Under the pieces are notes generated by a model, which was not told the DNA's origin, did not search any database, and saw nothing but the letters and a program-made list of their open reading frames with translations. From Hydractinia symbiolongicarpus (lineage: Eukaryota; Cnidaria; Hydrozoa; Anthoathecata; Hydractiniidae), in the NCBI RefSeq assembly GCF_029227915.1, contig NC_079876.1, positions 11,222,001 through 11,286,000 of the forward strand: 64,000 bases of DNA. The letters are read 5' to 3'. Below are positions 3,811 to 39,119 of this stretch, piece by piece. Position numbers and translations under genes: made by a program. The number at the start of each line of letters is the position of its first letter. Within the stretch, counting starts at the first letter, position 1.

Positions 3811-5975
3811 AGATGTAATCAAAAGCCTCACATCACTAGAAATATAAGAAAGGCCATCATGAAACGCTCTTACTACAAAAATAAAGCTAATAAATGACTC
3901 TAAATATAAAAAGCTTTATAAATAACAAAGAAACATTATTGTAAATATGAACAGAGCAGCAAAGAGATCATATTTTCATTCCCACGAGACCAATTCCAAA
4001 GACTTTTGGAGCTCTTGTAAACCTTTTTTTTCGAACAAATCTCGCGGTAGTGAAAAGATTTCTTTGTTAGATGATGTTAAAAATGAATTCATCTCTGATG
4101 AAGGTGAAGTAGCGACAATGTTTAATAAATATTTCATAGATTTAATAAGGAAACTTGATTTAAAACCCTGGAAATCCAAAGTGGCCTCTTCAGTATCTCT
4201 AAATAAACTTGATTCTATCCTTCTCCATTATGCTGATCACCCTAGTGTTCTAAAGATCCGTTCAAAAACGAAGAGAAACTTCTCCTTTTTAACTGTTAAT
4301 CCTGAGGAAGTTCACAAAGTGATACTGAGCCTAAATGCAAAATAGGCAGTCAGCGGCCCAATTCCAACGAGAATAATTCAGATAGTTGCAGACAAAATTT
4401 GCTTGCCACTTACAAACTGCATAAATTCTTACATCACTGACGGTATATTTCCATCAGTACTGAAACTATCTGAAGTTATTCCCGTTTTCAAAAAGGGTGA
4501 CAATTCTCGGAAAGAAAATTACCGACCAATTAGTATTTTAAATAGTTTTTCTAAAATTTTGGAACGGCTTCTATTTAATCAGATTTCTAGCTATTTTCAA
4601 CCAATATTTTCATCATTATTATGTGGTTTTAGAAGTAAATATAGCATCCAAAATGCTCTATTTCGCCTAATTGGTAAATGGCATCAGTGCTTAGATAAGT
4701 CTGGGGTGGTGGGAACTGTCTTAATGGACTTGTCAAAAGCATTTGATTCCATAGATCATGGCCTTTTAATCTCAAAATTGGCTGCTTATGGTTTTGATAG
4801 AAAAAGTCTTTACCTTATGAAAAGTTATCTCTCTGGACGTTTTCAAAGAACCAAAATCTGCAGTTCTTTTAGTGAGTGGCTCTCAATTATTTTCGGCGTT
4901 CCACAAGGTTCTATTCTCGGTTCACTTCTGTTTAATATATTTATAAATGACTTATTATTATTTATTGAAAAAACTGATATCTGCAACTTTGCTGATGATA
5001 ATACAATCTACACTTGTGGATCTCAATTAAATGAAGTCATTGCTGACCTTCAGCATGACTTAAATAACGTATTAGCCTGGTTTGAAAACAACCAATTGGT
5101 TGCTAATCCAGCAAAGTTTCAGATGATGTTTTTAGGTTGTCCACACAGTGATACTTTATCGCTAAGAATAAACAATAGCTTCCTAGTCGCATCGGAATCT
5201 GTAAAATTATTAGGCATTACTATTGATAGATGTCTCACTTTTAATGAGCACATCTCTAATCTATGTAAAAAAGGAAATAGCAATGTCAGATGTCTTTACA
5301 GAATAAGACAATTCATTAGTTTTGAACAATCAAAGTTATTGCTTAATTCTTATATTTTATCAATGTTTACCTATTGTCCCATTATATGGATGTATTGCAG
5401 TGCTGTGCAGTATAAATTAATCATTTCAACACACAAACGTGCATTGAGAGCTGTAACAAAAGACTATCATTCCAGTTATCAGGACTTGTTGGTAAATTGT
5501 AACTGTGTGCAAATTCGCGAACTGCGTTTACGTATAATCTGCATAGAGATTTATAAAACATTAACAGACGAAAATCCGTCATTTGTGCAGTCTTTTTACG
5601 CTATAAGACGTATCAGTTACAATTTGCGCAGCAAAAATAGTCTACTTTTACCATCCACAAGTTCAACACGCTTTGGTACTAGATCTTTTTTGTTTCGAAG
5701 TTGTTTGTTATGGAACTCTTTGCCTGACAGAGTGAAGAGTTCTCTCTCCATCAAGAGTTTTAAAAAGGAACTTATCTCACTTAATCTTTCAGATCTCTGC
5801 ACATGTAGGCTACATAAGTCGGCTATTCTCGTCTCTTATTTTTAATGTTTGGTACATCTTTGTGTTTTTTGTTTATTTATTTTTTACTTTAGTTGGTGTA
5901 AATTAGTATTTACCATTTACTATGTAAAACCAACTTTAAATAAATGAAATAATAAAATAAAAAAATAATTGCAAA
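3811..5975 (+). mobile_element. 5'-truncated non-LTR retrotransposon (LINE, jockey/CR1-like)
   Basis: The element starts inside the region between endonuclease and reverse transcriptase: frame 1 from about 3811 encodes a KPHITRNIRKAIMKRS-like stretch typical of that linker in animal LINEs. The endonuclease domain is absent, as expected for 5' truncation during target-primed reverse transcription. The 3' end has a short AT-rich untranslated region and an A-rich tail with repeated AATAAA (about 5938-5968). No clear target-site duplication was found. Confidence 0.8.
3847..5845 (+). pseudogene. LINE reverse transcriptase, broken by a frameshift and two stops
   Basis: The 480-residue open part (4403-5845) has the reverse transcriptase fold: VFKKGD and NYRPIS near residues 29-45, the first catalytic Asp in DLSKAFDSIDHG, GVPQGSILG, and the catalytic FADDN box (FADD rather than the commoner YADD). 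A thumb/connection region follows to the end. Decay is visible upstream: a +1 frameshift near 3893-3896, a TAA near 3914-3916, and a TAG at 4343-4345 that splits LNAK from the in-frame AVSGPIPTRI. The copy cannot make a full protein, but the domain itself is nearly intact, so the insertion is fairly young. Confidence 0.85.
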
Positions 5976-9216: not shown

Positions 9217-10924
9217 CTAGTACCAAAATTTTCTTGTTTTATGCTTTGGTCTCATGTTGACTCCGTACAACTTCCGTCCATTTGTTGCTTGTACTGGCCG
9301 ATAATTTCCGTACATTGGTAAATTTTCACAATCCAGAACTTTATTAATTGCTCGTAGCTTAAAATAAAGAAAGCGATCAAAATGTTATCTTGTTGCTTAA
9401 TTTTGTACAGTTTTAAAAGGTTGAGAGTTTACACTTGCAAAAAAACATGAAGAAAGTTGCTTACATCTCGGAGGTTAATTGTATGCACACGACTGGTAAG
9501 TACAACCCAATCAACATTCTCAGTGCATGGTGGTGTGGTCAACGAGCCACGGTAGTTGACATATGGTGTACGTTTCAAGTTAGCACGGCATGGTATAAAA
9601 TTGGCCAAAGGAAATGCCGGGACCTTTACACTGTTCCCTATGAGCAAAAGTTATGTTTTCTAAATTGCTCTTTGTTTTTCCTATTCGGTATGGGAAAGGA
9701 GGCCCGAAAATGGCATATTATTGTCCAGAGCTTTCTCAAACGCTATTGTGACAGGTAATGGTAGTTTTCCCGATTTTAAAATTTCTAGTGAGGTTCCCCA
9801 AACAATGCTCACGTCAGCAATAAAGAATTATGTTAAATTATTTTTTTTGTCTACTTTAACTGTACCTACCTATCTCTCAGCACTTTTGGACAACGGTCAC
9901 TTTGTGCACCGTCCATCCGCTCTTTCAAGGTCCAATAAAGTCCATGGCAAATAGGGTGGAAGTCAAATTATTTTAAAAATGCCAGTACCTTGTTGATTAA
10001 GTTCACCCGCATGACCACCTAACTGCGAAAAGATTGAACTCGACCTTCTCCGTACCTGAAATAAATTAATGAAATATTCTATTATGTTTGAACAAATATT
10101 TTTCTCGTAATTGTCTTACTGTTACGCCTTACTGTTAGTTTCACAAACACTCCTATGACAAGCAGCACATCACTGTGTTGAGACACTTCTGCCAGCTTGT
10201 ACTTTGCATTTAGATGAACAAGGTGCATCTAAAGAAAAAAAGTAACATTGTAGCTACATCGCTTAAACACACGTGTTGGTTGGTCTGTTTAAAATTAACG
10301 TACCTCGCCTTGAAAAAACTTTCTATTTAACGAATGCTCGGATCCTTTTTTTATAGGTGAGCCAAAGTGGATATGCGCTTGGATTGGCACAAATTTATTT
10401 CCACCTTTCTTTAAATAATAGAGAGTGCTTTCTGGAATATCAATAACAAGCGTGTGTCCATTGTTACTAAATGTATAAGTTTCTCCAGTTTTTGGTGGCT
10501 TGTTGTAGTTGTGAAATAAAATTATGTTCTTTCTACTTGGTCGAATTGTTCGTGAAAGGTCAATGTTTATCGGCGACTGGAGACTGCCAGCACATTGGGG
10601 ATTAGTTTTGGACCATTCTTTTGGTCCTACGTATAATATTGAGGAAGTTGTAAATAGTTATAAAAAACATTAATGATCTGCCAGATACTGCGATAATCTT
10701 ACCATTGAGTTTCCCCCCTTTGTAATTCCAGTCAGCAGTGCAAACTTCATCGCCTATAACATTAGAAAAGAACTCACACATTTGTGGCGACTATACAAAC
10801 ATTAATACTTACAATATTAAATATAAGAAAAAATAATGGTAGATAAAAAGGGATGAGACTTTGAAAACTTACACTCTACATATGCAAGATATGCAAACAT
10901 AAGGATGGTGAGGATTTGATACAT
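9217..10924 (-). CDS. Secreted alpha-carbonic anhydrase, seven exons
   Basis: Reversible hydration of CO2, outside the cell or in the secretory pathway. Seven exons join in phase at GT-AG introns: 10873-10924, 10703-10753, 10304-10626, 10133-10228, 9989-10055, 9465-9637 and 9217-9357, giving 300 residues. A hydrophobic N-terminus (MYQILTILMFAYLAYVEC) is a likely signal peptide. Zinc ligands are His119 and His121 (QAHIHFG) and His144 (MHLVH). The proton-shuttle His92 is present in NNGH, as are the GSEH and SLTTPPC motifs. Cys46 and Cys234 match the disulfide pair typical of secreted isoforms. The C-terminus has the usual NYRPVQ motif. No transmembrane or GPI tail is evident after it, so a soluble secreted enzyme is likely. 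Cnidarians use such enzymes in carbon supply, pH control and calcification. All catalytic residues are present. Confidence 0.95.
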
Positions 10925-12328: not shown

Positions 12329-12335
12329 GAGAAAG
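12329..12335. repeat. Left target-site duplication GAGAAAG
   Basis: Seven bases immediately outside the left TIR, identical to 27720-27726 immediately outside the right TIR. This fixes both boundaries of the element. Confidence 0.85.
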
Positions 12336-12448
12336 CACCCTATTCGGTAAACTGTATATGATAGTTATCCCGCTCCGCTGTAAAACGGAGAACGATAAAC
12401 GGCGCACTCCGTTGTTGCGCTGTTGCTCCAGCGATAGCGGAGAGCGAT
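12336..12448 (+). repeat. Left terminal inverted repeat, 113 bp
   Basis: Matches the reverse complement of 27607-27719 at 107 of 113 positions; mismatches are at TIR positions 51, 66, 67, 71, 72 and 80. It contains CTCCG/CGGAG mini-palindromes and repeated GTTGCTCC/GTTGTTGC-type motifs that could be transposase-binding sites. The pseudokinase start codon lies 40 bases past its inner edge, so the repeat may also carry that gene's promoter. Confidence 0.92.
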
Positions 12449-12487
12449 GCTTATGGAAGGTTTTGCTATTTGCCTATGAAATAAAAA

Positions 12488-15400
12488 ATGGCGGCGTCGT
12501 TGCGAGAAAAAGAATTCAACGTTGATATTTTTACTATTTTAAATCATCAAAATGAACACGATGGTAATAATAAAAAGGAAGATATGGATGCTGGAGTCAA
12601 TGCAAAAGAAATGTACAAGCTTAAATTTGAAGGTCTTGTGCGAATTTGTTTTTTTTAGCTTGCTTTTTCTGTTTGCTAGCTAGCTAGCAGCTAGAGCTAC
12701 ATATCCTAGCCATAATAGCTAGCTGTGAGCCCTTATCCTCCTTATTCCACGATATCTAATCAGCTGCAATGTGACATGGTTACAGCCCTTTTTAGCTGGT
12801 CAGCTGACTAGCTATGCTATATAGATGAGTTCCAGCAGTGTGACGTCATTTGTTTACTTTTTGGCGGTAAAGCTCTAGGGCTCTGGCATTCAGAGCTTGC
12901 TGAAGAGAGGTTTTTTCCTGTGCATTTCTTCTCGCGGAAACGTCATTGAGGTTTTCAACTACTATCGAGTGTAGATTGATGCCTTCTGCACGGCTGTTTC
13001 GCTACGGTCAAACCGCGGACAAAATTAAGATGGCTTCCACAATTTTTTTGGAAATTTTGTATTTTTATCATTTTTTAAATTATTGAAACTTTTTTTGTGT
13101 TGTTTTAATTTTACTGCATTAAAAAGTATTAAAACGATCTACTTTTCCCCTTTTTAAATATATAAATATGTTATACATGTGTGTTATAAATTTCGAGTTA
13201 TTTCGTCAAACAAAACACACAAAACTAAAAAAAAACATTATTTTTGGCGAAAGTATACCATCTTTCCAACCTTGTGCCAACGTCGCGCTACTAGCTATGG
13301 ACTTGAAAATTGGTATGGGGGGCCTGGAAACATGGTTCTATTGGCCGGTACCGTGCACCGTTCGTCTCGCAAACTATAACCTACTTAAATTTTAAGTTAA
13401 AGTCTTCTTTAGGCGCTAAAAAAGAGGAGAAAAAGTTGCCAAAGTGGTGCACGGCGATTTGATGTAGTGTGATCCCTTTTCTGTCTAATTAAATAATTAT
13501 CTAAACTTCTAAGCAAGTCACAGTGATGGCGTTTAATGTTTTGGTAGGTATGGTTTTTCCCAGCAAAATTACGGCAACCCGGTGTTTACTTTTGACTTGA
13601 TTGCTCGACCCGGGCATCCTAATCCGAAACCGGGATTTTTTGAAAATGTTGGAATAAGCGAGACAACGGTGTCTTAGCAATTTTGAAGCTAGCTAAAGTT
13701 TGGCAGAGCACGAGGTAAGGGAAAAACAGTAAACTACTTTATTTTGCAGGGATTTTAATATTATTTTTTTGCTATAAGATCACCCTTGGTTTTAAGAAAT
13801 TGTTTTATAGCTTGTAAAACTTCTTTTTTCTTCTGTTTTGTATTTTTCTGTAAAGAGTAGCTATTTTTTGGTCCTACAGTTTTGCATTTTGCATCGTGTT
13901 TTGTAGCTAAGTCACTTAATACTTCTTTTTTATATTTAGTTAAGACTTTGGTGGGCTTTTTCAAGATAAAATTGTTGAAATCAAAGATGTTTATGGCTAG
14001 CTAGCTAATCTTGGCTTTATCACAAGATTGGGTGCTATTTTATACAATTTATAAAGAAACACAACATGATTGCTTTGTATATATTTAATGTATATAATAA
14101 ACTATTTATGCACAACTTGAGTTATTTTCTACTAGCATGATAAACTAGAATGTTGAAACTGTCGACTCTGAATGACGTTTTATTTAATGTATGATGTCAC
14201 ATATTTGGCCTGAAAACCCTTAGGACCAAAAGTGACCCTTTGAACAATTTTGGACAGATAAATATTACATCTACATCATCTTTAATGGCCTCAGAATCCA
14301 AAGTAATGTTTTTTATTCAGTTAATAAACGAATTTTAAGCATACATTCAGGCTCTAAAGGTCGTTTTTCAAATAATTTTTCCCATTTGGCCCAAAAATAA
14401 CCCTTTGGACAATTTCGGACAGACTAATCTGTCATCTACAACATCTTTAATGGCCTTAGAATCCAAAGTAATGTTTTTTGTTCAGTTAATAAACAAACTT
14501 TAAGCATACATTGAGGCTCTAAAGGCCGTTTTTCACATAGGTCTCACATTTGGCCCAAAAATAACCCTTTGGACAATTTCGGACAGTAATAAAATAAATT
14601 AATTTTTATTCCAGATATTTAACCTAACCTTTGGACCATAAAAAACATGTTTCCTTAACTTTATTCTAGAGATATTGTGGAAGACATTGATCTAAATGAT
14701 AATTTTTAAGTCATTTTTAGACATTTTGGCCTAAATATACCAATTTCGGACAGGTGTCCAAAAATTTTTTTCTTTTAATAATATGGACAATTTATCCAAG
14801 ATTATTATTCTTTTTACAGAATATAAAAATTTTATTTCGTTCTTGAGATATCCTGTTTTAACTGAGAGGGTAATTCGAATTATTTTTTCGTAACATTTTT
14901 GTCCGCTTCGAAACAGCTGTGTCTGATTGAATAAAAATAACCTCGCTTCACCTAGCGTCCCCATCCTTTTTCCTGCCACCCAAATGGAAAGCCAAAGAAC
15001 TTCCTGCTGAAAATGTAAGCAATGGAATTCATCTAGCTATAGCTATATCATCAGTCAAAGGCTTGACTGTTCTGCATCAGCCAGAGGACATATCCCCAGT
15101 AGTATATTGATTTAGGGGCCTTCAAAAATTTATCTTGGGCCCCATTAACAAGATTTTGTCCGTTAAGGTCTTCACCTCTTAACGGATCCTCCCCCAAAAA
15201 ACTGAAATGATTCGCTGGTTTACGACAATATGCTCTTCCTACTACCTCGTGATGTTGAGACTGTGCTGCCATCTTGATGCCTTCTAAAACATTTTGGGGT
15301 TGATTATAATGCTCTGACATTTTCAGTCAAGTTATAGAACAATAAAAAATGGTTTTTAATGGACAATATCCTATTATCAGGGCCCAAAATATTTTTAGAA

Positions 15401-18344
15401 GGCCCCTTTGCTAAAGCGCAGGTACCAATAGGTAGTAGCTATAGCTAGCTAGCTATAGCTATGCTGATAGTTGTGGAAGTCATTTTTGAAGCAGTCTGTT
15501 TTGCAGGGAATTAATCAAATTTAAAACATATATAGCTATACCTTCCGCTCCCAAATAAGTTAATCTCAAAACGTTCATAACATTATTACTACTGAACAAA
15601 AAATCATTTGTTTCGCAAATCAAATTGTAAAAACTAGAAATTTAACCTTAAAGATAGTGTGTTTCCCAACTTCGTTCAGTTCTCCACCATATCGAAATGG
15701 TTATATACTTGTTCAAACTTATTTAGGATATATATATTTATATATACTCCAATTGTGACCAATTTTGACGATGATGTTTGCCGCTTTTCACTCTAGCTCT
15801 TTTTCAAGATAGTGATCGAATTTGCATTCAAGTTTTATTTTTTATATGCTCTCTTATAAATGCAAATGGGAAAAAGGGATATATTTTCTTAAACTATGTT
15901 ATAAGTAAAGTCAATGAGCTATATCAGGACAAGATAGAGAAACTATCACAAGAACAAATTCACCATTAATAATCATGAAATGATGGTCTTTTTAATATTT
16001 CAGAATAAATTGCATAAGTCTAACAGCTAATTAAGAAATTACTAATTATAACCTGAGAAAATTAAATGCAGTCTCAAAGAAATACTTAATTTCTAATTTT
16101 ACTAGGCAGAGTGGTTGCTGTACTTGGACATTGAAGTGCTATATTTAGACTCTGTTGGCTGCTTTTTCCCCTTATTCTTTTAGATACTTGGCTTGAACGT
16201 TTGTTGAACTCAGTGGATAACTATTTCGTACTTTAAAAGACAGTAAGGCAGTATTTCCTCATGTTAGGTTATCCTGTAGGTTAGGTTTTCAATTCATTTC
16301 ACCATTTTTTGCCTAAAATTTGTAATGAATCAACTTACATCGACTTTTATAGGTACATAATTCTTTTTCATGATATGTCAAGTAATCCAGCAAATATTTA
16401 TTTTGTGTAGATGTTTGGAATCATATCAGGTGCACAGTTGCTCCAGTTTTAAGTGGAAAATCTCAAAGGAAAAGAAAGGTTCTGAAAAAAGTAAAGGAGG
16501 GTATTCAGGTGGGTTTTTATAAAGATTGCTGTTTTTAGCAAACCTTTTTTAAAAGTATTTATTTGTACAACTGGCTGCTGTATAACTATATTGCATTTTT
16601 TTCTGCAGAAAAAAGTGGAGAAAATGTTTGAAACTGACGTAGATGGAAGTGAGACGATCAAACATATTGAGAGTGACCTATACGAACGATTTCAGGTGTG
16701 TAAGCAGATCTTCAGATATGTTATAATATGATTTAAGAATTTTATTAGACATAGAACCTCAGGTTTTACAAGTAGCATGCGTTTAAATATAGCTGTGCTT
16801 TAGGTTCGGTTGGAGTTGATAAAGTACATGAAAGGACAAGAGGGAAGTGAATCTGTTGTCAGCGGCTGCTATCCCTTACCGGAAAGAAATAAAGTAATGT
16901 TTTTTCTGTGATATAGTATTTATCTTTTTACATTTTCTTAACTTACAGTTTAAAGTACATTCTTCTTAGCTTGATGGACAAGATGAATGTGATGCCGATA
17001 GTCAAGAAACAAAAAGCTCTGAAACTGATGAAGTAAATAAATTATTTCCTTTGGTTATTTTTGGGTCTCTTGCCATTTACCTTAAATGTGCCTCGAGATT
17101 TCCCTTGTGTGTATATGCTTACAAACCTTAAAATATGGCAAAAAATATAAATAAAGACCTTGAAAAAAAATTTAATTTAATAAAATTTTATAAAAATTGA
17201 CACACACAAATTAAATTGTTCTGTCTATCATAAGGTATAGGTCTTGTGTTATTTTTAGCTTTCCAATGATGTCCCACTAAGAAAGAAGAAAAAATGGTCG
17301 TACATGCCTACAAAACAAGACGAACTGGTAGAAAAACTGGATGGCGCCAATAAGCGGTTGACGAGACTAGAAAATTTAACATCAACATTGAGCTATCGGA
17401 TCCACGAATTGAAAGAAAAAAATGCGTCGCTGCTGCTAAGAAATGCCGAATTCACAAGGTTAAAGCTGGTAGAACAATTAGGCATGAATCGATCAGTACA
17501 AATGGTTGATGCGTCCTTGTTTGCGAGTCGCTTTCATACAGGAGATCCACTATTGCAAGAGGAAACCCCTTGCATTCTAGATTCAGCGTTCATTTCTACG
17601 CTGAAAATAACAGATTTTTGTGAAGGTGTTTTTGCTTCTACTAAAAGGGCTATGTTCGATGACGGAGATACTGTGATATTGAAAACGTTTTCAAAAGATT
17701 GTCGTCAAAATAACATTAAAAATGTTGCCCATGTAAGTCACGAGCACCGGATTTTGAAGTTTATTGGTCGGCACGAAAACCTAGTGAGCAGCATTGGAGT
17801 CGTGCATTTCGATCAATCGTATTATTCCGTGCTTCATTACGTTGCTGGTTATACTCTTGATCGCCATTGGAAATTGGGTTTTCCAGACATTTCTTCAACT
17901 TCAGTTTTTAAGCGAATTCTGACAGGCGTTGCAAGCGGAATTAGCTTCTTGCATAGTAAGGGTGTGTTACACAACCATATCGTTGCAGACAATGTAATTC
18001 TTCACGGACAGGATTTGTTTCCTATTCTGATAGGATTCAGTTTTGCTTGTCGTGCAACATGTGTTAGGAACAGTTGCGTAGATGTGATCAAACTGTTTCC
18101 AGATAAAGCGCATTTAGCACCAGAGTTATTTCAGGGTTGTCCTGTGTCGTATAGTACGGACATATTTAGTTATGGGAAACTCCTCGATAACTATTTGAAA
18201 AATATGTCTGTCATGGATGACAAAGCGCGAGATAAGTTGGAATCCTTCTCGATACAGTGTATGGATTGGAGAGCGCCTCATCGATTACCGCACAAATTTC
18301 TTTTCAGGAGAGTGGGCTTGCTTCTGACGGAACTAGGGTACTAG
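12488..18344 (+). CDS. Transposon-borne coiled-coil pseudokinase
   Basis: Proposed six-exon model: 12488-12632, 16411-16508, 16609-16695, 16804-16893, 16970-17032 and 17259-18344. All junctions are in phase with GT-AG introns, giving 522 residues. Residues 1-175 are charged and unrecognised (KSQRKRK basic patch near 70). A predicted coiled coil lies at about 184-236 and a kinase-like domain at about 276-520. The ATP-site lysine (VILK, about 303) and the alpha-C glutamate (HEHRIL, about 323) remain. HRDLK has become HNHIV and DFG has become GFS, so catalysis is unlikely; the APE motif (LAPEL) is kept. It is therefore probably a scaffold or signalling pseudokinase. The first intron is 3.8 kb, so joining exon 1 to 16411 is the weakest link; the phases agree exactly. 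Nearby GT-AG exons downstream are firm. Confidence 0.75.
13761..13964 (-). CDS. Small lysine-rich ORF inside the pseudokinase intron
   Basis: A 67-residue minus-strand frame, strongly basic (over 30% Lys), reading from a TTG codon, so it is more likely an exon than a complete gene. It ends in TAA followed by an AAAATAAA-like sequence, which fits a 3' exon. No domain recognised. It could belong to the same unit as the frame at 15051-15320, but no spliced path is proven. Confidence 0.25.
   Translation of the reverse strand: MKKPTKVLTKYKKEVLSDLATKHDAKCKTVGPKNSYSLQKNTKQKKKEVLQAIKQFLKTKGDLIAKK
14197..14590. repeat. Tandem repeat, about 2.4 copies of a 155-165-bp unit
   Basis: Units share ATTTGGCC, ACCCTTTGGACAATTTCGGACAG and AATCCAAAGTAATG blocks. 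The AATCCAAAGTAATG block recurs at a spacing of 165 bases and the ATTTGGCCC block at 154 bases. The array lies in the first intron of the pseudokinase gene; weaker echoes (TTTCGGACAG) continue to about 14755. Confidence 0.75.
15051..15320 (-). CDS. Unrecognised ORF inside the pseudokinase intron
   Basis: An 89-residue minus-strand frame starting at an ATG (15320). Hydrophilic, with no recognisable motif and no clear splice donor. It is nested in the first intron of the pseudokinase gene on the opposite strand. A fourth transposon gene is possible, but chance is equally likely for a frame of this size. Confidence 0.2.
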   Translation of the reverse strand: MSEHYNQPQNVLEGIKMAAQSQHHEVVGRAYCRKPANHFSFLGEDPLRGEDLNGQNLVNGAQDKFLKAPKSIYYWGYVLWLMQNSQAFD

Positions 18345-18474
18345 TTCCATAAGATTGATAGGCAAAGATAAAAATATTTTCAACTGTAAATTGTATTTCC
18401 TTCTTCCAATTTCCCTCATGCACCCACCAAGTTTGAAAAATGATAAATAGTGGATAAAATTAAGTCTATACCTT

Positions 18475-18625
18475 AAGGGAAGAAATTTTGGTGGGAAAAA
18501 ATTTGGTGAAAAGTTAACTTGGCGGAATTGACGGAGAGGGAAAAAAATAATTTTGGCGGGAATTTATTTGTGCGGGCGGCGTCAATACCACCAAATTTTC
18601 TTCCCCCAAAAAGATTTCTTCCCTT
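18475..18625. repeat. Foldback (MITE-like) sequence, about 150 bp
   Basis: The left arm begins AAGGGAAGAAATTTTGG and the right arm reads as its imperfect reverse complement, ending in TTTCTTCCCTT. The arms also share a GAAAATTTGGTG-type block. It lies just beyond the pseudokinase stop codon, in the gap between the convergent genes, and is probably a small element nested in the giant transposon. Confidence 0.55.
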
Positions 18626-18917
18626 GGAAGTTGTAATTTTTCGACTTTCTTCTCTTTCCAAACTGCAGTACGTCCAGAAATTGACGCAAGTACGCGAAAT
18701 TACTTTAATCAGAAAATTAGATGTGGGTGGCCATTCTGCTGTGTCAGCACATTAACGCGGGTTAAGACAAGGATATTAGAAACAGTATATTTATCCTATG
18801 GAGGCATTCTCGGAGCCATTATTTTTTGTATGTATGGATTAGTTATGATATTTAAAAAAGCTACATTCCCAATTGTCGTTCGATATCGGATTCGCAAAAA
18901 TAAATATCGCAAAACCA

Positions 18918-18977
18918 CAACCTCGAACCCAGGGCCTGTAGCGTTTATTTGATAAACAGGCCCTGGGTTCGAGGTTG
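18918..18977. repeat. Perfect 22-bp inverted repeat with 16-nt loop
   Basis: Arms 18918-18939 and 18956-18977 are exact reverse complements (core AACCCAGGGCCTG / CAGGCCCTGGGTT). It lies between the 3' ends of two convergent genes. It could be a MITE core or a transcript-end structure. Confidence 0.8.
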
Positions 18978-19241
18978 GCAAAACCATATTTTCTCAATGA
19001 ATCAAAAAAATTAAATCTAGCAATAATTTATACAGCGTTAAATATCCTGTTAAGGTACTTGTTCAAGCTCGACCTTAGTCAGGGATTTTTTCTTAGGGCG
19101 GGGAAATCAAAAGGACAAGGGGTGGAAAAATTACGCTGGGTCTCAAACGAATTTTCTGCGGTCGGAATACTGATCGATAAATCCGCGAAAGTTTCTTAGT
19201 AATGAACAACAATAATAGCTTTTTCTCTCCTTTTTTGACAA

Positions 19242-21338
19242 TTAAACGTTACTAAGAAAATATTCTTCTAAATCAGGCTTTGGTAAATTTTCCGCCACTT
19301 CCCATGTTGGAGAACGATAGCCAATCCATTTAACCTGATATTCTCTCCGATCATTGACCTCTCTGTGAGTCATTATAAAGTCAATGAAACCTTCGTTTTG
19401 GGCAGACTTATCCAACACTTCTCGAAGAGTCACAACCTTTCCAGATTTGTTTGGAACATTGTCCACTAAATTAAGTGACTGGGTATTTATATCAAGCTCT
19501 TCGCGTTGAATGGCCTCTTTAGATTTTCGCTTTCTTCTATTAAATTCACGCACAACTGTTTTCTCAGACCCTACATTATCTTTTGAGCTATGCGGTTGTT
19601 CAATTCGCTCTAGCTGCTGCTCCTGTTGGTTTAAATTGACCGTTTCGGATGACTCGGCAATGCAACTTGAATTAGTTGTATGGTTTGTTATAATTGGAAC
19701 TAAACAAGAAGTATGGTGCATTTTAATTATTTTCTAATCAGCAGTATATATCACAGAAATAATAAAAAAGACCAGCGTAAAACAGCGAGAAGAAACTTAA
19801 CCATGATAACAGATGTTTTACCAGTGAAAGATATGTGTTGCATATTCTCTTTTAATATTTTTAGCTCGACTTGGGAACAATTGCTAGGCTTTTTAAACAT
19901 AAAACCGGCCGGTAACCAATTTACTGTTACGTGACCATTATCGACTTGTTTGTAGGGAACTGTTGTACGCTTCCCACGTGATGCCAAATCTATAATAGGA
20001 AGAGAAAACTAATGTAATTGAACACTAGAAGCAGATTACAAACCTCTTTTTAAATAAGTAAAGCAAAGCGGCGTACATATTTTTTGATTCAGTTCCAAGG
20101 TTACTTCTTTTCTTAAAGATGTTGTTTCTATGGTTGCTTCAACCGGTACACCTAGTATAATAAATTTGAAGAATGAAAATAATGAAGCTAATCGAAACAT
20201 GGATTGTAGCGCATTTAAAAAATCACACTGGCGAATTGTAAACAGAAGGCTGTGCTTACTCATTATGTGACTGGCGAACTTCCATTCCAAATCATTTTGA
20301 GAGTCAACAAAATCAATTCCTTTTTGACTCCCGTATACAGTGACTTTATTTCCCGTTCTTTCTGTGTCCATATCCATTATAACGATATCCATTCCGATGG
20401 ATTCCATCTCTCTACACTAAATAGTAAAGTTTTATGATTCAATATTCTGTTATCCCTAATCTCATATTGTTGAAAATATAGTAAAAATTACGAATTCTTA
20501 GGTGGTAAAATATTTCAAGTTCCGGAATATTTTAATTTAATAACATTTTTTGGCACGTTCCATGTAGACAGTTGACGCATCAGCTCCTTAAAAAACAAAG
20601 TTTTTGTACTAACAATTTTTTCCCTCATTCTGCGAACAGCCGACGATTGACTCTGTTGAGATAAACTTGAGAAATTTGGCTTCTCAACTGTAGAAGCTTG
20701 GGCGTTATAGGTTTTCCTATCTTCTTCCGGTAACGCCGTCCAGGCTTTATTCATATCCGCCATTTTGTTGACTGGATTATCTAAACAACAAAAAACTAGC
20801 GAGTATTATGTACTTATAATATTTTCAGTTTATAGACTTACTAATCTCATTTTTAGCTTCTCTTCTTTTCAAACTCAGTTGGATGCGTACTATAATAATG
20901 GCTGGCAATAATATGTCAATAAGATGATACAACGATATAAAATAAGTATTGACAACAAGCTAAACCTTTCATATATTGTTTACGAAACATGTCAAAGCCA
21001 GAAGGTTTTCTTTCGGGTAGTTTTGTCGACTTTACTTGTGGAGGTCTTCTCTTGCTATTAATCCAATCCTACACCAAAAAGAAAAACAAGGTCAACTTTG
21101 TAATCATAATAATGGTATTGCCGTAATTCTGTTTTTTAAATGTACCAAAAAGTGTTTCGACAGAACAAACCTTGATTTTCGATTCACTTAGGCCTGTTTT
21201 CAATACCGCTTGCTCTAACAAAGATCGCGCCAACGTATTGTCACTTTTATAGCTCTTCATTCCAGCTTCATAAAGTTCTTCGAGGACAGTGACTTGTTCT
21301 GGGGTCTTTTTTACTAGCTTTCTCTTATTTTCAGCCAT
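19242..21338 (-). CDS. Homeodomain / HMG-box-like / chromodomain protein, transposon cargo
   Basis: Eight exons: 21171-21338, 20966-21068, 20842-20889, 20557-20780, 20260-20416, 20044-20151, 19822-19989 and 19242-19699, giving 477 residues. All junctions are in phase; only the exon 4 donor (AAC|GTGCCA) is weak. Residues about 7-65 form a homeodomain-like unit (TPEQVTVLEELYEAG, then LSESKIK across an intron to DWINSKRR, where a classical domain has WFQNRR). Residues about 79-135 resemble an HMG box (SGFDMFRKQY ... AWTALPEEDRKTYNAQA). The last 50 residues form a chromodomain (YQVKWIGYRSPTWEVAENL). A basic stretch, NRRKRKSK, is a likely nuclear signal. Known roles: homeodomains and HMG boxes bind DNA, chromodomains bind methylated histone tails. 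Inference: a DNA-binding chromatin-reading partner that could steer insertion or repress host silencing. Confidence 0.8.
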
Positions 21339-22834
21339 GTTCTACTGTTTTTTGAACTACGATGATAATTATCAAACATACACAGTTGGCTATTTCCAAA
21401 AAATATAAGATCAGTTGGGATGAATCGGAACAAAAACAGTTTTGACATAGCAGTCAGTTAACTCACCCCTACAAAATGTCGCGTGTATTTGATTTCGTTA
21501 CTGCAAAGTAAGTGGAGTATGTAAAGCACAATTTGTGGGTATTGTTACCCGAACTAGCAAAAATATGAGCGTCTGGAATATCTTACCAGAATTTTTTTTT
21601 TTTGCTTTAACCTTGACAAAATTTTCAGCCTGCGACATTTTGTCCGCACAAGTTTACATAATTGCATAAAGCCGGAAAGAAAAAAACTTTATTTTCATAA
21701 AATTCGACGAAATATGATGATTTATTATGAACTGTGAAATATAATTTCGCGAAAATTCATTCAACCGCGAATCGCGATTCTCCTTTTTGAAAATCTAGTT
21801 TTTTTACATTACCAGATTGACAGAAACTTCTGGTTACATCACAAACCCTTATACAAGCGCTAATTTTTATCTTATGCAATCAAGACTAGCACCTGCCGTA
21901 AAATGAAATTTTTCAGAAAAATGTCAGAACACACAGCTCAAATTGATCCGAAATTTATATTCACAGCACTATTCCTTTCACTGGACTTGACATCGAAATA
22001 GACAAATAACTGCCGTTAAAAGAAATCATGTCGAAATTGACACTGTAGCTCGACCCGATCTCAGTGAGACATGTCAGAACACAGTACAAAGTGACCCGAA
22101 TTTCTATTACACAGTTTTCTTAAAAACAAAAAAACAACAAGATAAGACCTACTTACTAATTTTAGCGTGTGTTAATTTAGCAAGACAAATTTACGCATTT
22201 TTTATAAGAACAATGAACTTGGAGAAAGTTTCTTACTTTTTTACAAACATTTTTTTTGATTATTTGTTTAACGTCCCTGGAAACAAATCCATGTAGATCC
22301 TGCAATGTTTTTAACTATTTCTTCGATAAATTTAGGCTACGCTAAATTAGTACACGTGGATGCCATGGGAACGAGAGAAAACGGGACGAGCATTAAAATG
22401 TATTCCAGCGACACAAATTACAAAGTAAACTTGCAATATATAAGACAAAGGAAGCATTAGTAACTTTTTTTTATGACATCACATAAATACCGCGTCCGTA
22501 CAAAGTAGAAGTGGACATATCTAACCTACTTATTAATATCATTAAAAAATCTGTAAAATCTGTAACAGATAAATATTTGTTTTACATATTCTATAAATCT
22601 GTAACAAAATTTAACAAAGGCGCAAAATTTATATTCTATATATATCTTAAATGAGGTGATTACTTAGAAGAGCCAAAGCTTTCGAAACACAATTTCAAGC
22701 TGTGATAGTCAGATGGTTACAATGAATTATATTGCTATCCATGTGTCACCAAGTAATAATAGCAAAAGAAAATATAATAAATCAATTCTGTAAAAACACT
22801 AACAAATATATATATCGAAATATGCAGTTACAGG
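21339..22834. other. Spacer between cargo gene and transposase gene
   Basis: AT-rich, with no convincing ORF. It includes the 5' flank of the homeodomain/chromodomain gene and the 3' flank of the transposase gene. The segment 21640-21790 has several TTCG/CGCGAA-type short inverted motifs (for example around AACCGCGAATCGCGATT). Confidence 0.5.
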
Positions 22835-25800
22835 TCATGGGTTTTCTTCATCAGATTCATCTGAAGATTGTCCATCGCAATAAACAGTCACATCAAAATC
22901 ATCTTCGAGATTGTTGCTTTCGACATCCATAAATAGTTTCTGCATATTTTCTACTGTATTTCGTACATAATTTAGTTTTTCTATAACAAAGATTTTTTTT
23001 GGAGAATCGTTATTATAAATAGCAGTAGCCAATGAGGATTCCATTTCTCTATAGTAGTTTAATACGTGCTGCATTTCCGTACGAACAATTTGAAGCTCCT
23101 CGGTAGCACGACACTTGCGCAGGTAAAATTGTACGCACGTACTTTTTACTGATGCAGGAATGTTATGTGAAGTGTTATTAACCTAAAATAAAGTGTCCGT
23201 AACAAATTAAAGAACTCGTCATTTTTTTACCATGCATAATTTTTAGAGAATTACCTGATCAACCGTAGTAGTGTTTAAATATATCCTGGAATTGACGTCC
23301 AATGCATCTTTATACAACACATCTTCGTACACACCACATTCTCTGTTCGTCTGATTTAACGACTCAACTAAATTCTTTAGGTCATTGCAGATTTTATTGA
23401 TTTGCACTGATAAACGATTGCATATCGAAGAACCATCTATCAAAGTTAAGTAAAATAAATCAACAAAGAATAAAAAAACAAAGATTGTACACATATTTCA
23501 TCGGGCTGATATAAATTTATAGTTTACCTGCATATCGTTTCTTTAAAGTCAGTAACATTAACCTTTCAGTTGCACGAGTATGTAAAGTATCCAAAGTGGT
23601 TTTTACAGCATTCTGAACGAATTTGCGATGATGATACGTGTACTGATTTGAGGTTATACTCCAACGATCGTTTACATCGTGCTTTTTTTCGAAACTCGAA
23701 AGACCAGATTCCAACCTAAATAACAATAACAAAAAGCCATCTAAGAACGAAACAAAAAACTACCGGATGGTTAGTGTGTTGTGGCATAAACTAAATGTTC
23801 ACATACCTGTTTAGTTTTATCCTATGTCTCGCAGTATCAGAAACACTACTACTTAACAGGAGTAATGTATTTTCGTTATTCAGCTCTTTAATTTTAGTAT
23901 AATATTTGAATTCCCAACCAACCTCTAAAGATAACACTTTCACATTGTATAACAAATCAGTTAATCAAGTTCTTCCTTTAACAACAAATAAGTGTAAGTG
24001 TAACAAATAAGTACCTTGCTCTACAACACTTTTCCATTTAATTTTAGACTCTTCCTCCAACTTCCATGAGTGTATAACCTCGTCTGTGATATTATCTAAA
24101 AACGTTAAGTTTCAAGAACTCTCACATTCTTTCAGATTTGCCAACAAATAAAACCAAATGTATCCCATTAACAACTCTATTCTCACGAAACACGATTTTA
24201 AGAAAATATGTCACCTAGGTTTAAACACAAAGTTTGGATTTCTGCAGAACTAGTCTGATAGACAGCATTGGCTTTTTGATACCAGCCCACAAGTGTTTTC
24301 CCTAATGAACACAAGTAATTCAAAAATACAACAACTAAATGCTAAAACTTCTTGCTCACTTACTTAAAATTTCACAGGTTTTGTATATACAATATTATAA
24401 TTAAACAATATATAGATACATGCGTACCTAATATTTCTAACTTAGTCATTGTAAAATGATTTAAAGCATCACTCAAAAAGTCAACACGGTGAGCTGAAGT
24501 CATCTCTTTCGTGATTTTTGAAAACGATCTCAAATAGGACCAGAGTCTTTCCATCAGTTCCCCATCCATTAAACCAAAACCTTCCATTCTACGGATCGAA
24601 TGTTGTACCTAACAATGAAAATGTGGAAAACGGTTACTATTACAAAGATTCTGTATGTCAGTTGTCAAAGTAATAAGAACAATAACAACAATAACAACAA
24701 CAACAAACACAACAATAATAAAAAAGAAACAAACCTGACAAGAACTTTTGTGCCCATATGCGTGAAATACTGGTATCCCTAATTTGAATTTGGGGTATTT
24801 ACTTAACGTTCCTTTTTTCTAAAATATAGATCAATATATACTGTTCAACATATATGTTTCAAGCTAAACCAGAATGCATATAGAAAACGAATAACCTGAC
24901 AGGCAATATCATACATAATATGGACGTCAATATCTTTACCCAACACTTCAGCTAGGATTTTATTCATCATTAATACCGCATAACCAATTCTAATCATATG
25001 AAAAGAAAATATCATTGAATATTCTATAATAAACAACATCGCAGACTGAAAATTATTTTGTCCAAGAAATATTTTTGTGTATATAGTTTACATTAATAGA
25101 AAGTTTATGCAATATATAAAAAGACTACTAACCTCTCGCCATGTCGCATGTTAAGAAAGAGCTTTGGAATTTCATGCCGACAAGATACACCAAAAACACC
25201 TGTCACACTAAGCTTTGAACTTTTTCTTTTTGAACGGATACGGTTCCCTGCTTGAAAGTTATTACATTCCTAAAGTGATTTCAGACTTTATTACAACGAG
25301 GAAGTTTTGAATTAAATTAGGGTGATGAAGTGTATCTCACCTTATTTTCCACAGCTTTGTCATCATAGCTAGACATGAATGTGTCAACTTCGTCATCTTC
25401 AATAAAATGATTTTTGTCATTGTTTGGGGTATTCTTTGATTTTGATGCAGAGCTTTTTAAAACAAGTCCAAAATTAGCATCCATGCAATAGAAAACACTC
25501 CCAGCATCCTAAAAGCATTACAACAAAATTACCAGAGTATATAAAAAAGAAATACAAAAATATCCATAAATGACAAGCTGCCATACTATTGGACATGCTG
25601 GACATTGGTTGGGTTTTTTTCCTGTTAAGTCTGAAAACCATAGATCCCTCAACTGTCGCTGGAATTGACGGTATTGGTCAATGGAGTCTGTTTGCATAAA
25701 ACGTGTTAATACGCGTTTCTAGAAAAAAATTATGAACTATATAATATAATTATAACAAGCCCATTGCTGCTAAATTAAACAATTTGGCTCTCTTCTGACA

Positions 25801-27205
25801 ATAAATAGGCTTTCTTATTAAAAAAGGTAAAAAGGTTTTGTTGTTAGTCCTAACCTATAAATTCAAACCTTAAACTTACCAGAGTTTGGTTATGCATACC
25901 AGTTTTCCATGACATTCCATCAATAAATGAAGTGAAAGAAATTTTACCCTCCATTTGCAATGCAACGAATTGGTCCAGCAATTTTATTGAGATGGCAGTA
26001 GAAGGTTTAGTAGGTGTTGATGGCCATAAATCATACTTTAACAACTTCGAAAATTCAGATTCACATGTGCAGAACCAGACTTCACACTGATGGAGACAAC
26101 CTATAAGTTCAGAATATAAGGGCTTATCCAACTGCTAACTGTACAAATAGAGCACTCACATCATAGTCACATGTATATATTACCTTTTTCTGAAACAATT
26201 GTTATTACTCGAAAATATTTGTTTGAACAGGAATAACAGTGAGCATCGTGTAATTCGTTGTGAAATGTATATGTCATCATGTCAAAGTTTGGCTATGAAA
26301 AAATAAAACATCACAAGTATATATATAATATATATAAATCAAATATATATATATACATATAAACACGAACTTTAAGTTAAAACTTTAAGTAGCAAAAATG
26401 AATGTAATTTTTTCTTGAAAACAAAACATAAAAATAATATATATAATATATATATAAGTTTTTTTAGAGTGAATGCAGATTTTTTTCACAATGCCAAACC
26501 CTCCTGAAAGCGCCTGCACTTTTTACAATGTTTATTCTATTTATATGTAAAACTGTCACATCTTATTATCTAGGAGGTTAACATTATACACATAACATCA
26601 AGCGCATAGCTGATAAGCATGGCAAGTTTGGTAAGGACTAGTTACTAGCTAAATGGCGTAACTTGCTTCACTTGCAGGCTCTGTATAGCTTATATATATA
26701 TACACACCTTTAAAGTAATTGCATTATGAAATGCAATGTTCTTATGGGAAACGTCTGCACAACCCTGGCAATATGTCGCAAGTGGACCACAGTCTTTGCA
26801 CCAAACAAGCCCTTCCTCAAACGACGAATCACATACCGTACACTTTTGAAGAAGCAAAAGGTTGAATTTTTCAGCATAATTTTCACAAATGTTAGAAGTG
26901 ACAGAACTCCAGGAATGTAATTCTTTCTCTTTGTTTCTTTCATAACCGCCACATCTTTTTTTTTTAACTATATCCCCACTCAACAAAAACTGTACATTAT
27001 CATGTTCTTCAATATCAAATTGTTCGGTTTGCACTAAAGGGTCCTCAATAGCACTTGTATTATTTGTTTCTTCTATGGTAGTTATGCTTGCAGAGGAATT
27101 GCTTGTCACCGGCTGAAATGACTTGAAAACACTTCTTGTATAACCGTTTCTGAGAGTTGTGCGAATGATCCGTGACCCTTTCCTGTTAGACTTTGCAAAA
27201 GGCAT
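22835..27205 (-). CDS. KDZ (Kyakuja-Dileera-Zisupton) transposase, 15 exons, intact
   Basis: DDE-type transposase expected to cut and join the element's TIRs. Exons: 26708-27205, 26209-26292, 25880-26131, 25587-25718, 25341-25508, 25133-25269, 24896-24989, 24735-24818, 24428-24608, 24215-24301, 24015-24095, 23807-23924, 23528-23715, 23255-23436 and 22835-23182. They join in phase to 877 residues. Exon 1 has a Cys/His cluster (CTVCDSS, WCKDCG, YCQGC, then HKNIAFH) like the zinc module that accompanies KDZ domains. Next come LWPSTPTKPSTA, YRQFQRQLRDLW with CPACP, CMDANFG (first Asp), CRHE, MYDIACQ (second Asp), FHAYGHKSSCQ and GLMDGELMERLWSYL (Glu): the family's signature order. The end is coiled-coil-like with an acidic tail. 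Exon 2 has a second possible donor (26184), which would shift the frame into exon 3; the donor at 26209 keeps it open. Confidence 0.92.
26310..26460. repeat. AT-rich simple repeats in the transposase intron 1
   Basis: Interrupted (AT)n runs at about 26318-26360 and 26435-26458, within the intron between transposase exons 1 and 2. Confidence 0.7.
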
Positions 27206-27606
27206 AATATCTTACTGCTATAATAATTCAAGCAAAACATGGAGATGAGCTGATGAGCTAGATAGCTAGCTGCAACACTTGCCTTCCACACTGAACTGAC
27301 TAAACATTGAACAGGGGTGGGGGCTAGCTGCTAAAAACAAACAGTACAGAGGTAGTCTAAAATTTGGCTGACAACCATTCAACATAACTACAACACTATT
27401 TGTAGTGCTGTTACAAGGAAAACACTCTCAGAACTGCTAGAAAAGTGATTTGTCTCAACATATTTTGTCCAGGATTGTGGTGGTCACGTTGGTTTGGCCA
27501 TAGTGATGTTTGGCGAAGCAACGCAGCCAGCCAGAAAAATAAATGCACCACTATTCACCACAAAAAGTAATGCACCAACAACCAGCGTTCCATGCAAACG
27601 GCAAAT

Positions 27607-27719
27607 ATCGCTCTCCGCTATCGCTGGAGCAACAGCGCAGCAACGGAACGCGGGGTTTATCGTTCTCCTTTTTACAGCGGAGCGGGATAACTATCATATA
27701 CAGTTTACCGAATAGGGTG
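27607..27719 (-). repeat. Right terminal inverted repeat, 113 bp
   Basis: Reverse complement of 12336-12448 with six differences. Relative to the left copy it loses a CTCCG and a CGGAG motif (TTCCG and AGGAG instead), so the two ends are not equivalent in palindromic content. The transposase start codon lies 402 bases from its inner edge. Confidence 0.92.
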
Positions 27720-27726
27720 GAGAAAG
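27720..27726. repeat. Right target-site duplication GAGAAAG
   Basis: Directly abuts the right TIR and equals 12329-12335. Confidence 0.85.
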
Positions 27727-30605: not shown

Positions 30606-30610
30606 AAAAT

Positions 30611-30985
<375 letters not shown>

Positions 30986-31013
30986 TATATATTTATAAAA
31001 GTTAAAATATTTA

Positions 31014-34000: not shown

Positions 34001-34238
34001 TTTAAAGGCGAATTAGCCGCGAAATGTGTTCTTCATTTTTTTTGATTTCCACGAGAAACAAAAAACATATTCATCACTCATTTTTCCCTAAGAATAACCA
34101 ATAAAGACTGCGTACTGATTTGTTAAAAGTTCACAGTAAAACATTCCGCCTTAATGTATATAATCTCCCTTAGAAGCAACATGATGTATACGAGTTTGAA
34201 ATACGACACCATACTTTATTATTATCACTATTTTTTTT
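31014..34238. other. Intergenic DNA
   Basis: No recognisable gene. The only structure noted is a perfect 12-bp hairpin stem, TCCAACTGGGCA (32356-32367) and TGCCCAGTTGGA (32375-32386), with a 7-nt loop. Open frames such as 31098-31310 and 33092-33334 have no domain. Confidence 0.5.
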
Positions 34239-34240
34239 AG
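34231..34240 (+). promoter_or_regulatory. Splice or trans-splice acceptor before the Nudix start
   Basis: TTTTTTTTAG ends 20 bases before the Nudix start codon. The coding region is a single exon, so this is either the end of a 5'-UTR intron or a spliced-leader trans-splicing site, a process known in hydrozoans. Confidence 0.5.
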
Positions 34241-34260
34241 TAAAAGTACAAAACTGTGGA

Positions 34261-35160
34261 ATGTCGGATTTCGTGCAAGGAATACTTAAACTTCAAACTG
34301 GCAGTGTAAACTTTGAGAGCAAATTGCAAGATCACCCACCATGCGTGCATGGAGAGAACTTAATATATATCGTGTCCGCCATTTTGATTAAAGAAGAGAA
34401 AATTTTGTTAGTAAGTGAAAACAGACCGGAGTGTTATGGGGCATGGTATTTACCGGCTGGCAAAGTGGAAAAAAACGAAACTTTAGAAAGCGCCTTCGAG
34501 AGGGAATTAGTTGAAGAAAGTTTTATTCAAGGTAAGGCTGACCACTTGCTTAGCATTGATCATGATTTATTTGGAAGATGGTTTCGATACAATTTCATTG
34601 GTCATTCAGTCGGTGGTCGACTAAAAACATTGGAAGACCAAGATAAGGAGTCGCTTGAAGCAAAATGGTTTCCTATCAGTGATGTCTTAAACGGTGCTCT
34701 AGATCTTCGGTGCAGTGATATTTTGCACGTGATAAAAGACGCAGTAAACTGGTTGTCGGCCGACAAATCAATTCAACACATTAAATCGTTGCCGATTCAA
34801 GCGCCTTATACGCATCATATACAACGACTTATTATTATTGACGCGCGGCAGAGGGATAACATTCGTCTGGCGTTAGTAAAGACGTTAAATATTCTTCCAT
34901 GGGAGGGACTGACGCAAAGAGTTGAAGCTTCGCTGAATAGTGTGTTCACGTCGAAAACATTTCGTTTGAAAAGGCTAGGTATGTTGTCAATCGAACACCT
35001 TCCAAACAAGAAAAAACCCTCTGATGGAGTGTGTTTTAATATATTGTTTAGAGTGGAGGAGGGAGAGGAAAACGAATCGTTTGACTGGATTGTTTTAGAC
35101 GAAAATTTAAAAATCATATTTGAACAGATATGTGCCAGTAATTCGTTTATAATTTTTTAA
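34261..35160 (+). CDS. NUDT18: Nudix hydrolase, NUDT18-like
   Basis: Probable oxidised-nucleotide diphosphatase acting on 8-oxo-guanine nucleotides to keep damaged bases out of nucleic acid. One 299-residue exon. The Nudix fold occupies about residues 32-165: YIVSAILIKEEKILLV, then GAWYLPAGKVE, then the Nudix box from GKVEKNETLES through RELVEES. The metal-binding glutamates of RExxEE are present, but the Gly that normally follows (EExG) is Phe (EESF). The C-terminal 130 residues are not Nudix and resemble the variable tails of NUDT18 relatives. An intronless coding region with a splice acceptor 20 bases upstream fits a 5'-UTR intron or trans-splicing. Alternatives within the Nudix superfamily cannot be excluded; membership in the superfamily is firm. 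Confidence 0.88.
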   Translation: MSDFVQGILKLQTGSVNFESKLQDHPPCVHGENLIYIVSAILIKEEKILLVSENRPECYGAWYLPAGKVEKNETLESAFERELVEESFIQGKADHLLSIDHDLFGRWFRYNFIGHSVGGRLKTLEDQDKESLEAKWFPISDVLNGALDLRCSDILHVIKDAVNWLSADKSIQHIKSLPIQAPYTHHIQRLIIIDARQRDNIRLALVKTLNILPWEGLTQRVEASLNSVFTSKTFRLKRLGMLSIEHLPNKKKPSDGVCFNILFRVEEGEENESFDWIVLDENLKIIFEQICASNSFIIF

Positions 35161-35249: not shown

Positions 35250-35625
<376 letters not shown>

Positions 35626-38904: not shown

Positions 38905-39118
38905 CTATAGGGCAACCTTTATTGCTGACCCTAGTTGACCAGATCCTTTCTAGTCACTATGGGGCAACTTTTGTTGTTGACCCAAGTTGACCAAGGCTTC
39001 TAGACAGTCAACACAAAATGTTGCCCCATAGTGACTAGAGGGTGTTTGGTCAACTTGGGTCAACAATTAATGTTGCCCCATAGTGACTAGAGGATGTTTG
39101 GTCAACTTGGGTCAACAA
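38905..39118. repeat. Direct and inverted repeats with GTTGCCCCATAGTGACTAG motif
   Basis: Two adjacent direct copies of a unit containing TGTTGCCCCATAGTGACTAG and GTTTGGTCAACTTGGGTCAA lie at about 39018-39118. Inverted copies (CTAGTCACTATGGGGCAAC, TTGACCCAAGTTGACC) lie at 38951-38991. The cluster ends directly at the tyrosine-recombinase pseudogene. Confidence 0.8.
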
Positions 39119-39119
39119 T

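Follow-up and report, generated by a model that had tools for sequence, protein, structure and literature searches.

In the parts of the published accounts consulted here, which bound all comparisons made below, Zisupton and a Dileera element of the KDZ (Kyakuja-Dileera-Zisupton) superfamily make 8-bp target-site duplications (TSDs), Kyakuja makes 7-bp duplications and has CA..TG ends and no terminal inverted repeats (TIRs) (PMC12730594), and the fungal elements KDZ1-3 are about 9–11 kb long, with TIRs of 139–241 bp and duplications of 4–8 bp (PMC12810828). Here we describe an element of this superfamily in a stretch of 64,000 nucleotides from the hydrozoan Hydractinia symbiolongicarpus (C2:11222001-11286000 of the assembly; hereafter the window). 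The element is very probably a KDZ unit of three genes whose companions have long been conserved. Besides a KDZ transposase (T), it carries a homeodomain-like and chromodomain protein (H) and a coiled-coil pseudokinase (K). T has the KDZ catalytic domain together with CxC1/CxC2 clusters. By its end features, the element resembles Kyakuja in the 7-bp duplication and the CA..TG ends and differs from it in having long TIRs (PMC12730594), while its 7-bp duplication sets it apart from Zisupton and the Dileera element (8 bp; PMC12730594), and its 113-bp TIRs recall the long TIRs of the fungal KDZ1-3 (PMC12810828).

Companion genes have been described for several comparable elements. The fungal KDZ elements with TET/JBP likewise combine a KDZ element with a conserved chromatin-related companion, but TET/JBP is an enzyme gene that has passed between transposon superfamilies (PMC12730594), whereas H looks like a reader or DNA binder and K like a pseudokinase, both tracking one KDZ clade. 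IS3EU, with a transposase, TET/JBP and an alpha-kinase, is similar in having three genes with a kinase-type gene opposite the transposase, but it belongs to another transposase superfamily and makes 6-bp duplications (PMC12730594). A further difference is that K is without the catalytic aspartates. Alpha-kinases, moreover, form a family separate from the Pkinase domain type found in K. Ectocarpus has giant KDZ elements, and Chlamydomonas has one, which are also large; those of Ectocarpus share nested insertions, additional genes and possibly mobilisation in trans, but the hosts are algae and the accessory genes are mostly of unknown function (PMC12477816). Among animals, Zisupton of fish and Pristionchus is likewise a KDZ element with a multi-exon transposase, but with proteins of up to 1400 amino acids (PMC9297572), and in fish it is associated with an F-box (PMC12062965). 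A likely KDZ transposase gene has been listed among the genes of the Hydractinia sex locus (PMC9926710). We found no mention of the H and K gene set with KDZ in the limited literature on KDZ, Kyakuja, Zisupton and the algal giants available to us in part. What appears to be new is an animal KDZ clade with a conserved chromodomain/homeodomain-like protein and a pseudokinase, KDZ itself being already known.

A three-gene unit at five insertion sites

A sequence-only reading of the window had proposed a 15.4-kb transposon with 113-bp TIRs, six mismatches between them and a perfect 7-bp duplication, and both the repeats and the duplication (GAGAAAG) are borne out at 12336–27719. The inverted termini read CACCC...GGGTG, and the element combines TIRs with a duplication in the 7–8-bp range by which the KDZ superfamily is recognized. 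Inside, the layout is T > H > < K, with K on the plus strand and H and T on the minus strand. The boundaries of the 15.4-kb element hold, but about 1.93 kb of its length is a nested insertion in K intron 1, with CAC..GTG ends and a duplication of 3–4 bp (CTG/TCTG) at its edges, which is missing from three other young copies (C15, C14a and C14b). It is not part of the transposon proper, and we infer that it is a CACTA-like non-autonomous element. A 165-bp tandem repeat lies within it.

The host assembly (481 Mb, 76 contigs) gave at least 30 matches to the left TIR, among which the six long pairs, their reduced relatives and five further loci were read. Six inverted TIR pairs, the window's own included, span 13.7–31.3 kb; two of them, both on C7, have one common duplication and look like the product of a fold-back or of a second haplotype, leaving five distinct insertions. 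All five contain sequence of T, H and K, which matches the expectation of the sequence-only reading that full copies with the three genes would exist elsewhere, and their TSDs, all perfect, are GAGAAAG, GTACAGG, AAAATCT, AAAGTAG and AAATAAA. The flanks match over exactly 7 bp at all five full-length sites, not over the 8 bp of Zisupton. Because the same TIR pair stands with a differing perfect 7-bp TSD at five of five distinct full-length copies, a chance origin of the TIRs or of the duplication is ruled out, and so are host genes merely bracketed by TIRs, since the whole three-gene unit is present at five sites. The whole unit has therefore been amplified and moved by a process that leaves 7-bp duplications.

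The copies differ in state. Aligned pieces are about 99–100% identical to the window in C15, C14a and C14b and mostly 92–97% identical in C7, where the copy is decayed and carries a 16.5-kb insert, one of its assembled versions (C7a) being without several K exons. The insert, in C7:32253814-32285096, has inverted repeats of about 254 bp and is possibly another large mobile element. On C7, the same TIR elements occur at 22.03–22.47 and again, in mirror image, at 32.25–32.75 Mb, which points to two haplotypes assembled as a fold-back or to a large inverted duplication. In the C15 copy (C15:7495280-7513386), T intron 1 holds a nested insert that is about 4.1 kb long and has an inverted repeat of 31 bp. 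Among the reduced relatives, an internally deleted 2.6-kb element on C7 has the TSD AATCGGT, and no duplication was seen at the flanks of a 1.4-kb derivative on C8.

To obtain empty sites, 120 bp of left flank with one TSD copy was joined to 120 bp of right flank and the genome was searched; the best 40 of 991 candidates were scored, which limits all of the following counts. The window site is found uninterrupted at C2:10624105-10624345 (99%) and C14:14404898-14405138 (98%), with no length difference, and a third paralogue, C3:18280638-18280871, is 91% identical and 7 bases shorter. The C14a site has uninterrupted paralogues of up to 99% (C11, C1) and the C14b site of up to 94% (C6 and others). 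Empty sites, one of the checks named by the sequence-only reading, were thus recovered end to end for three of the five insertions, at 91–99% identity; for the C15 and C7 sites no empty paralogue was seen in these best 40, which says little. Since the joined flanks match uninterrupted paralogues end to end, at least three insertions entered members of older repeats, the paralogues showing the uninterrupted target.

Among the four young copies (window C2, C15, C14a and C14b), noncoding columns differ by 0.13–0.42% per pair (six pairs), and therefore the family moved recently.

The three genes and their relatives

The splice junctions of three multi-exon genes had been said to agree, and in hand-built models K, H and T can indeed be spliced through GT-AG junctions and stay open throughout, as predicted genes without internal stop. 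For T, the assignment to KDZ is confirmed by Pfam (PF18758, E 2.2e-47, 162 bits against a cut-off of 26.6), and the cysteine clusters CxC2 (E 4.6e-12, 46.5 bits) and CxC1 (E 2.4e-07, 31.3 bits) both lie above cut-off. The majority reading of T carries the acidic motifs CMDANF (331), YDIAC (451) and GELMERLWS (506), which may correspond to the catalytic triad of KDZ; YDIAC and GELMERLWS are retained in a second family described below, in which the CMDANF part was not seen. The exon-7 splice donor of T is peculiar to the window copy, since the five other assembled copies are without the 22-bp deletion found there; the window frame stays open all the same, with 878 amino acids against 884 in the majority reading (six residues fewer).

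H encodes 476 amino acids, or 458 with an alternative last junction that is also open in copy C14a (exon lengths of this form sum to 459 codons). Its predicted order of domains is a homeodomain-like part, a tentative HMG-like region, a conserved middle, a GTF2I-like repeat and a chromodomain. Concerning the homeodomain/chromodomain protein that had been proposed, the chromodomain stands by sequence (PF00385, 25.9 bits against a cut-off of 25.1; structure matches to CBX3, E 1.2e-4, and CBX1), and three of its aromatic positions are F, W and Y in both families, presumably the aromatic cage as in HP1. The homeodomain is less certain: as a single sequence the N-terminus matches at E 0.0079 and 16.4 bits, below the cut-off of 22.9, while a two-family profile finds the MATalpha2 homeodomain as best PDB match (E 3.2e-5). 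The GTF2I-like repeat, 56% identical between the two families, has E 2.1e-5 but 25.2 bits, below the cut-off of 27. An HMG box was not adopted, with no Pfam match and a best PDB match, HMGB3, at a non-significant E 0.39.

K matches the Pfam Pkinase family (E 2.9e-19). In an alignment of the active site of four members (the K of the window, that of family 2 and those of two distant relatives, 26–27% identical, at C13:18.54 and C4:22.11 Mb), the aspartates of HRD and DFG are missing from all four, whereas Lys142, Glu162, LHN-I-N and FS--CRA are invariant. The pseudokinase named by the sequence-only reading is thereby confirmed at the level of sequence, as a kinase domain that has lost its catalytic aspartates. 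Conceivably, K could instead be a working kinase whose catalytic site is unusual and whose substrate is T, H or a host factor. Some kinases without canonical residues are active, and Lys142 and Glu162, which we read as the beta3 Lys and alphaC Glu pair, are invariant in all four sequences; with both aspartates gone in all four, however, we consider such activity quite unlikely. A single-sequence structure prediction of the K exon had a mean predicted local distance difference test score (pLDDT) of 40.5 and was confident in one coiled-coil helix only. The distant relatives (C4:22108311 and C13:18540521) are 26–30% identical with the same dead-site signature; within 20 kb of them the thinned hit list holds no KDZ match, and they possibly represent a host gene family or another element.

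Diverged relatives with the layout T > H > < K are located at C13:19.99, C2:6.30, 6.53, 6.63 and 27.43, C11:25.16 and C3:15.74 Mb. Over alignable codons, identity between the C2:27.43 member of this second family (family 2) and the window family is 43% for K, 41% for H and 50% for T. The C13 member (C13:19986370-19996346; 9,977 bp; ends CACCCGTTTCTG) has the TSD AAACATG, and both of its termini start CACCCGTTTCTGTTAACTGT, again CACCC ends; for the C2:27.43 and C11 members one end each was found.

Genome searches with K, H and T gave 43, 100 and 98 rows, and co-location was counted after thinning to about one row per locus (29/43 K, 24/100 H, 22/98 T and 68/82 PF18758 rows), the C7, C6 and C1 groups being duplicated regions that reduce the number of independent events. 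At 20 of the 24 H loci a K lies 429–1,220 bp away, on the opposite, convergent strand in 20/20, and 15 of the 24 have a T or KDZ match within 30 kb, with one on the strand of H in 15/15 (the C3 and C5 loci also have one on the other strand). Conversely, 72 KDZ clusters comprise 11 with H and K within 20 kb, four with H only (two of which are the C7 copies, with K farther off, beyond the insert) and 57 with neither. Because 57 of 72 are without H or K within 20 kb, the H and K pair tracks one KDZ clade. Some of these 57 contain single open frames of at least 500 amino acids, e.g., C14:4638149 and C8:10880630. PF18758 had no match in 14 control genomes, and viral contigs searched for relatives of H and T gave pattern matches, none of them confirmed.

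Selection on the genes was examined through the proportions of synonymous (pS) and nonsynonymous (pN) differences. Between the families, for alignable codons only, pS/pN is 0.85/0.395 for K (383 codons), 0.839/0.412 for H (347) and 0.863/0.347 for T (393), a pS of 0.84–0.86 meaning saturation; between the window family and a C6 relative it is 0.855/0.237 for K and 0.77/0.299 for H. Against the decayed C7 copy, pN/pS is 0.57 for K and 0.46 for H. Within the four young copies, K (2/1568 variable columns, p 0.005) and T (6/2632, p 0.006) vary less than noncoding sequence (49/7623). With synonymous sites saturated and nonsynonymous change limited, the substitution patterns show all three genes to have been conserved long-term across the diverged families.

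The sequence-only reading had left open whether the companions were captured or had co-evolved with the element. A long co-inheritance of H and K with T, and not a recent capture, is favored by the presence of the three genes, in unchanged order, in a family that is 41–50% identical over alignable codons. That H and K are host genes picked up as passengers, with no role in transposition, has a parallel in the giant KDZ and EnSpm elements of algae, which carry accessory genes mostly of unknown function (PMC12477816). Against it stand the same pair, order and orientation in families so diverged that synonymous sites are saturated while nonsynonymous change stays limited, the conserved pseudo-active site of K, and the restriction of the pair to one clade, and we consider it very unlikely. 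Recent capture or passenger cargo was accordingly rejected as the principal explanation on the family-2 layout, the pS/pN values and the co-location counts.

Features of the window

Table 1. Positions of the element and its genes in the window.
Feature	Position	Strand	Basis or remark
TSD GAGAAAG, 7 bp, left	12329..12335	n/a	flank reading; uninterrupted paralogues of the site in the genome
Left TIR, K side, begins CACCCTATTCGG	12336..12448	+	at least 30 related matches in genome
Gene K, coiled coil + pseudokinase, 6 exons, 522 aa	12488..18344	+	splice model, Pfam, alignment
K exons 1-6	12488-12632, 16411-16508, 16609-16695, 16804-16893, 16970-17032, 17259-18344	+	
Nested insertion, about 1.93 kb, K intron 1, CAC..GTG ends	12989..14921 (right edge approximate)	n/a	missing from C15, C14a, C14b
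Gene H, 8 exons	19242..21338	-	splice model, Pfam, profile searches
H exons 1-6	21171-21338, 20966-21068, 20842-20889, 20614-20780, 20260-20416, 20044-20151	-	
H exons 7-8, either form	19802-19989 + 19242-19733, or 19822-19989 + 19242-19699	-	
Gene T, KDZ transposase, 15 exons, 878 aa	22835..27205	-	splice model, Pfam
T exons 1-8	27205-26708, 26292-26209, 26134-25880, 25718-25587, 25508-25341, 25269-25133, 24989-24896, 24818-24735	-	
T exons 9-15	24608-24428, 24301-24215, 24095-24015, 23924-23807, 23715-23528, 23436-23255, 23182-22835	-	
T exon 7, stops just past YDIAC	24896..24989	-	22-bp deletion vs 5 other assembled copies
Right TIR, T side	27607..27719	-	pairs with left TIR
TSD GAGAAAG, 7 bp, right	27720..27726	n/a	perfect match to left copy

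Outside the element, a 499-aa reverse-transcriptase frame at 4346-5845 probably belongs to an element of the LINE (long interspersed nuclear element) type, and a 215-aa frame at 39087-39734 has a sub-threshold match of phage-integrase type (E 1.5e-4), perhaps from a tyrosine-recombinase element. Long (AT)n arrays occupy 30609-30997 and 35253-35623, the second followed by (AG)n. Host-type frames at 10295-10657, 34174-35160, 44600-47885 and 56089-57546 correspond to carbonic anhydrase, NUDIX, two major-facilitator pieces and an inward-rectifier potassium channel.

Proposed roles of the companions

Taken as a whole, the data are best explained by a recently mobilised three-gene KDZ transposon in which T would provide catalysis, H a chromatin tether and K a scaffold or regulator, an explanation that we regard as probable. 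In KDZ elements it is the transposase that performs catalysis, and T is assigned this function because it is established for the superfamily: T would bind the element ends and move the element by cut-and-paste, making a staggered cut of 7 bp. H may use its homeodomain-like and GTF2I-like parts to bind DNA and its chromodomain to bind a methylated histone, and might thereby tether the transposition complex to marked chromatin, for example that of older repeats, or protect the element there. This role is proposed because of the DNA-binding and reader domains, the three insertions in older repeats and a precedent among retrotransposons, whose integration chromodomains direct according to the title of a reference cited in PMC12477816. 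K, being catalytically dead in its predicted site, could serve as a scaffold or allosteric subunit in the assembly or gating of the complex, as suggested by a site that is dead but conserved, together with the coiled coil. These specific roles of H and K are offered tentatively.

The domains of H can also be read as anti-silencing, in which H would recognize the element DNA and methylated histones and, with K, keep the element transcribed, with no guidance of integration. Transposon genes that act on silencing marks are known or have been proposed, e.g., TET/JBP in fungal KDZ and SET methyltransferases in HarbingerS and MuDR (PMC12730594), and the DNA-binding and chromatin-reader domains of H would suit such a function. 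However, neither H nor K matched any chromatin-modifying enzyme family in Pfam, and insertions into repeats also fit targeting. Although it is the main rival of the roles proposed for H and K, we regard anti-silencing as doubtful.

Several observations weigh against the explanation of a recently mobilised unit with working companions. In none of the young copies are T, H and K all present in one common, undamaged form. The 22-bp deletion affects T of the window copy (C2), and in C15 the last T exon has lost 5 bp; in C14b a stop interrupts K, and in C14a K is frameshifted and T has a stop, its H being open only with the alternative junction. For H, variability among these four copies is not significantly below that of noncoding sequence (6/1377 vs. 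49/7623, p 0.24); within family 2, pN/pS of K is scattered from 0.14 to 1.4, with p<0.05 in 2 of 15 pairs; and T has a pN/pS of 0.85 against the decayed C7 copy. Relatives of T without a K or H match within 20 kb occur, e.g., at C13:6.26, C13:11.94, C7:3.68 and C11:5.41 Mb. Further, three of five insertions in repeats is a raw count, not set against the repeat fraction of the genome, and the functions of H and K are deduced from domains and conservation.

These lesions raise the question of whether the element is inactive now, its copies being recent fossils of which some were moved in trans. All four young copies are damaged at least once in K or T, and internally deleted relatives exist, such as the 2.6-kb C7 element, both of which are in line with inactivity. 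The low noncoding divergence nevertheless indicates recent movement, and the lesions differ among copies in this one assembly, so that present inactivity is, in our view, an unlikely though not negligible reading. Because of the lesions, autonomy of the window copy is not claimed.

In the portions of the literature examined, KDZ companion genes come from fungi and algae, the F-box domain of Zisupton in fish being the exception, whereas here an animal KDZ clade has retained one pair of companions, in an unchanged arrangement, in families with saturated synonymous sites. This provides a testable case for transposon companion genes as working subunits and a means of studying how chromatin is read by a cut-and-paste transposon, and it shows a pseudokinase family to be carried by mobile elements. 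It is possible, if somewhat doubtful, that this is an ancient animal KDZ clade with an obligatorily three-part machinery. In it, the transposase would work with a tether of homeodomain, GTF2I and chromodomain parts, which reads methylated histones, and with a pseudokinase by which the complex is assembled or gated. If true, this would be a eukaryotic transposon of the cut-and-paste type that has a dedicated subunit for targeting by chromatin reading and a dead kinase as regulator.

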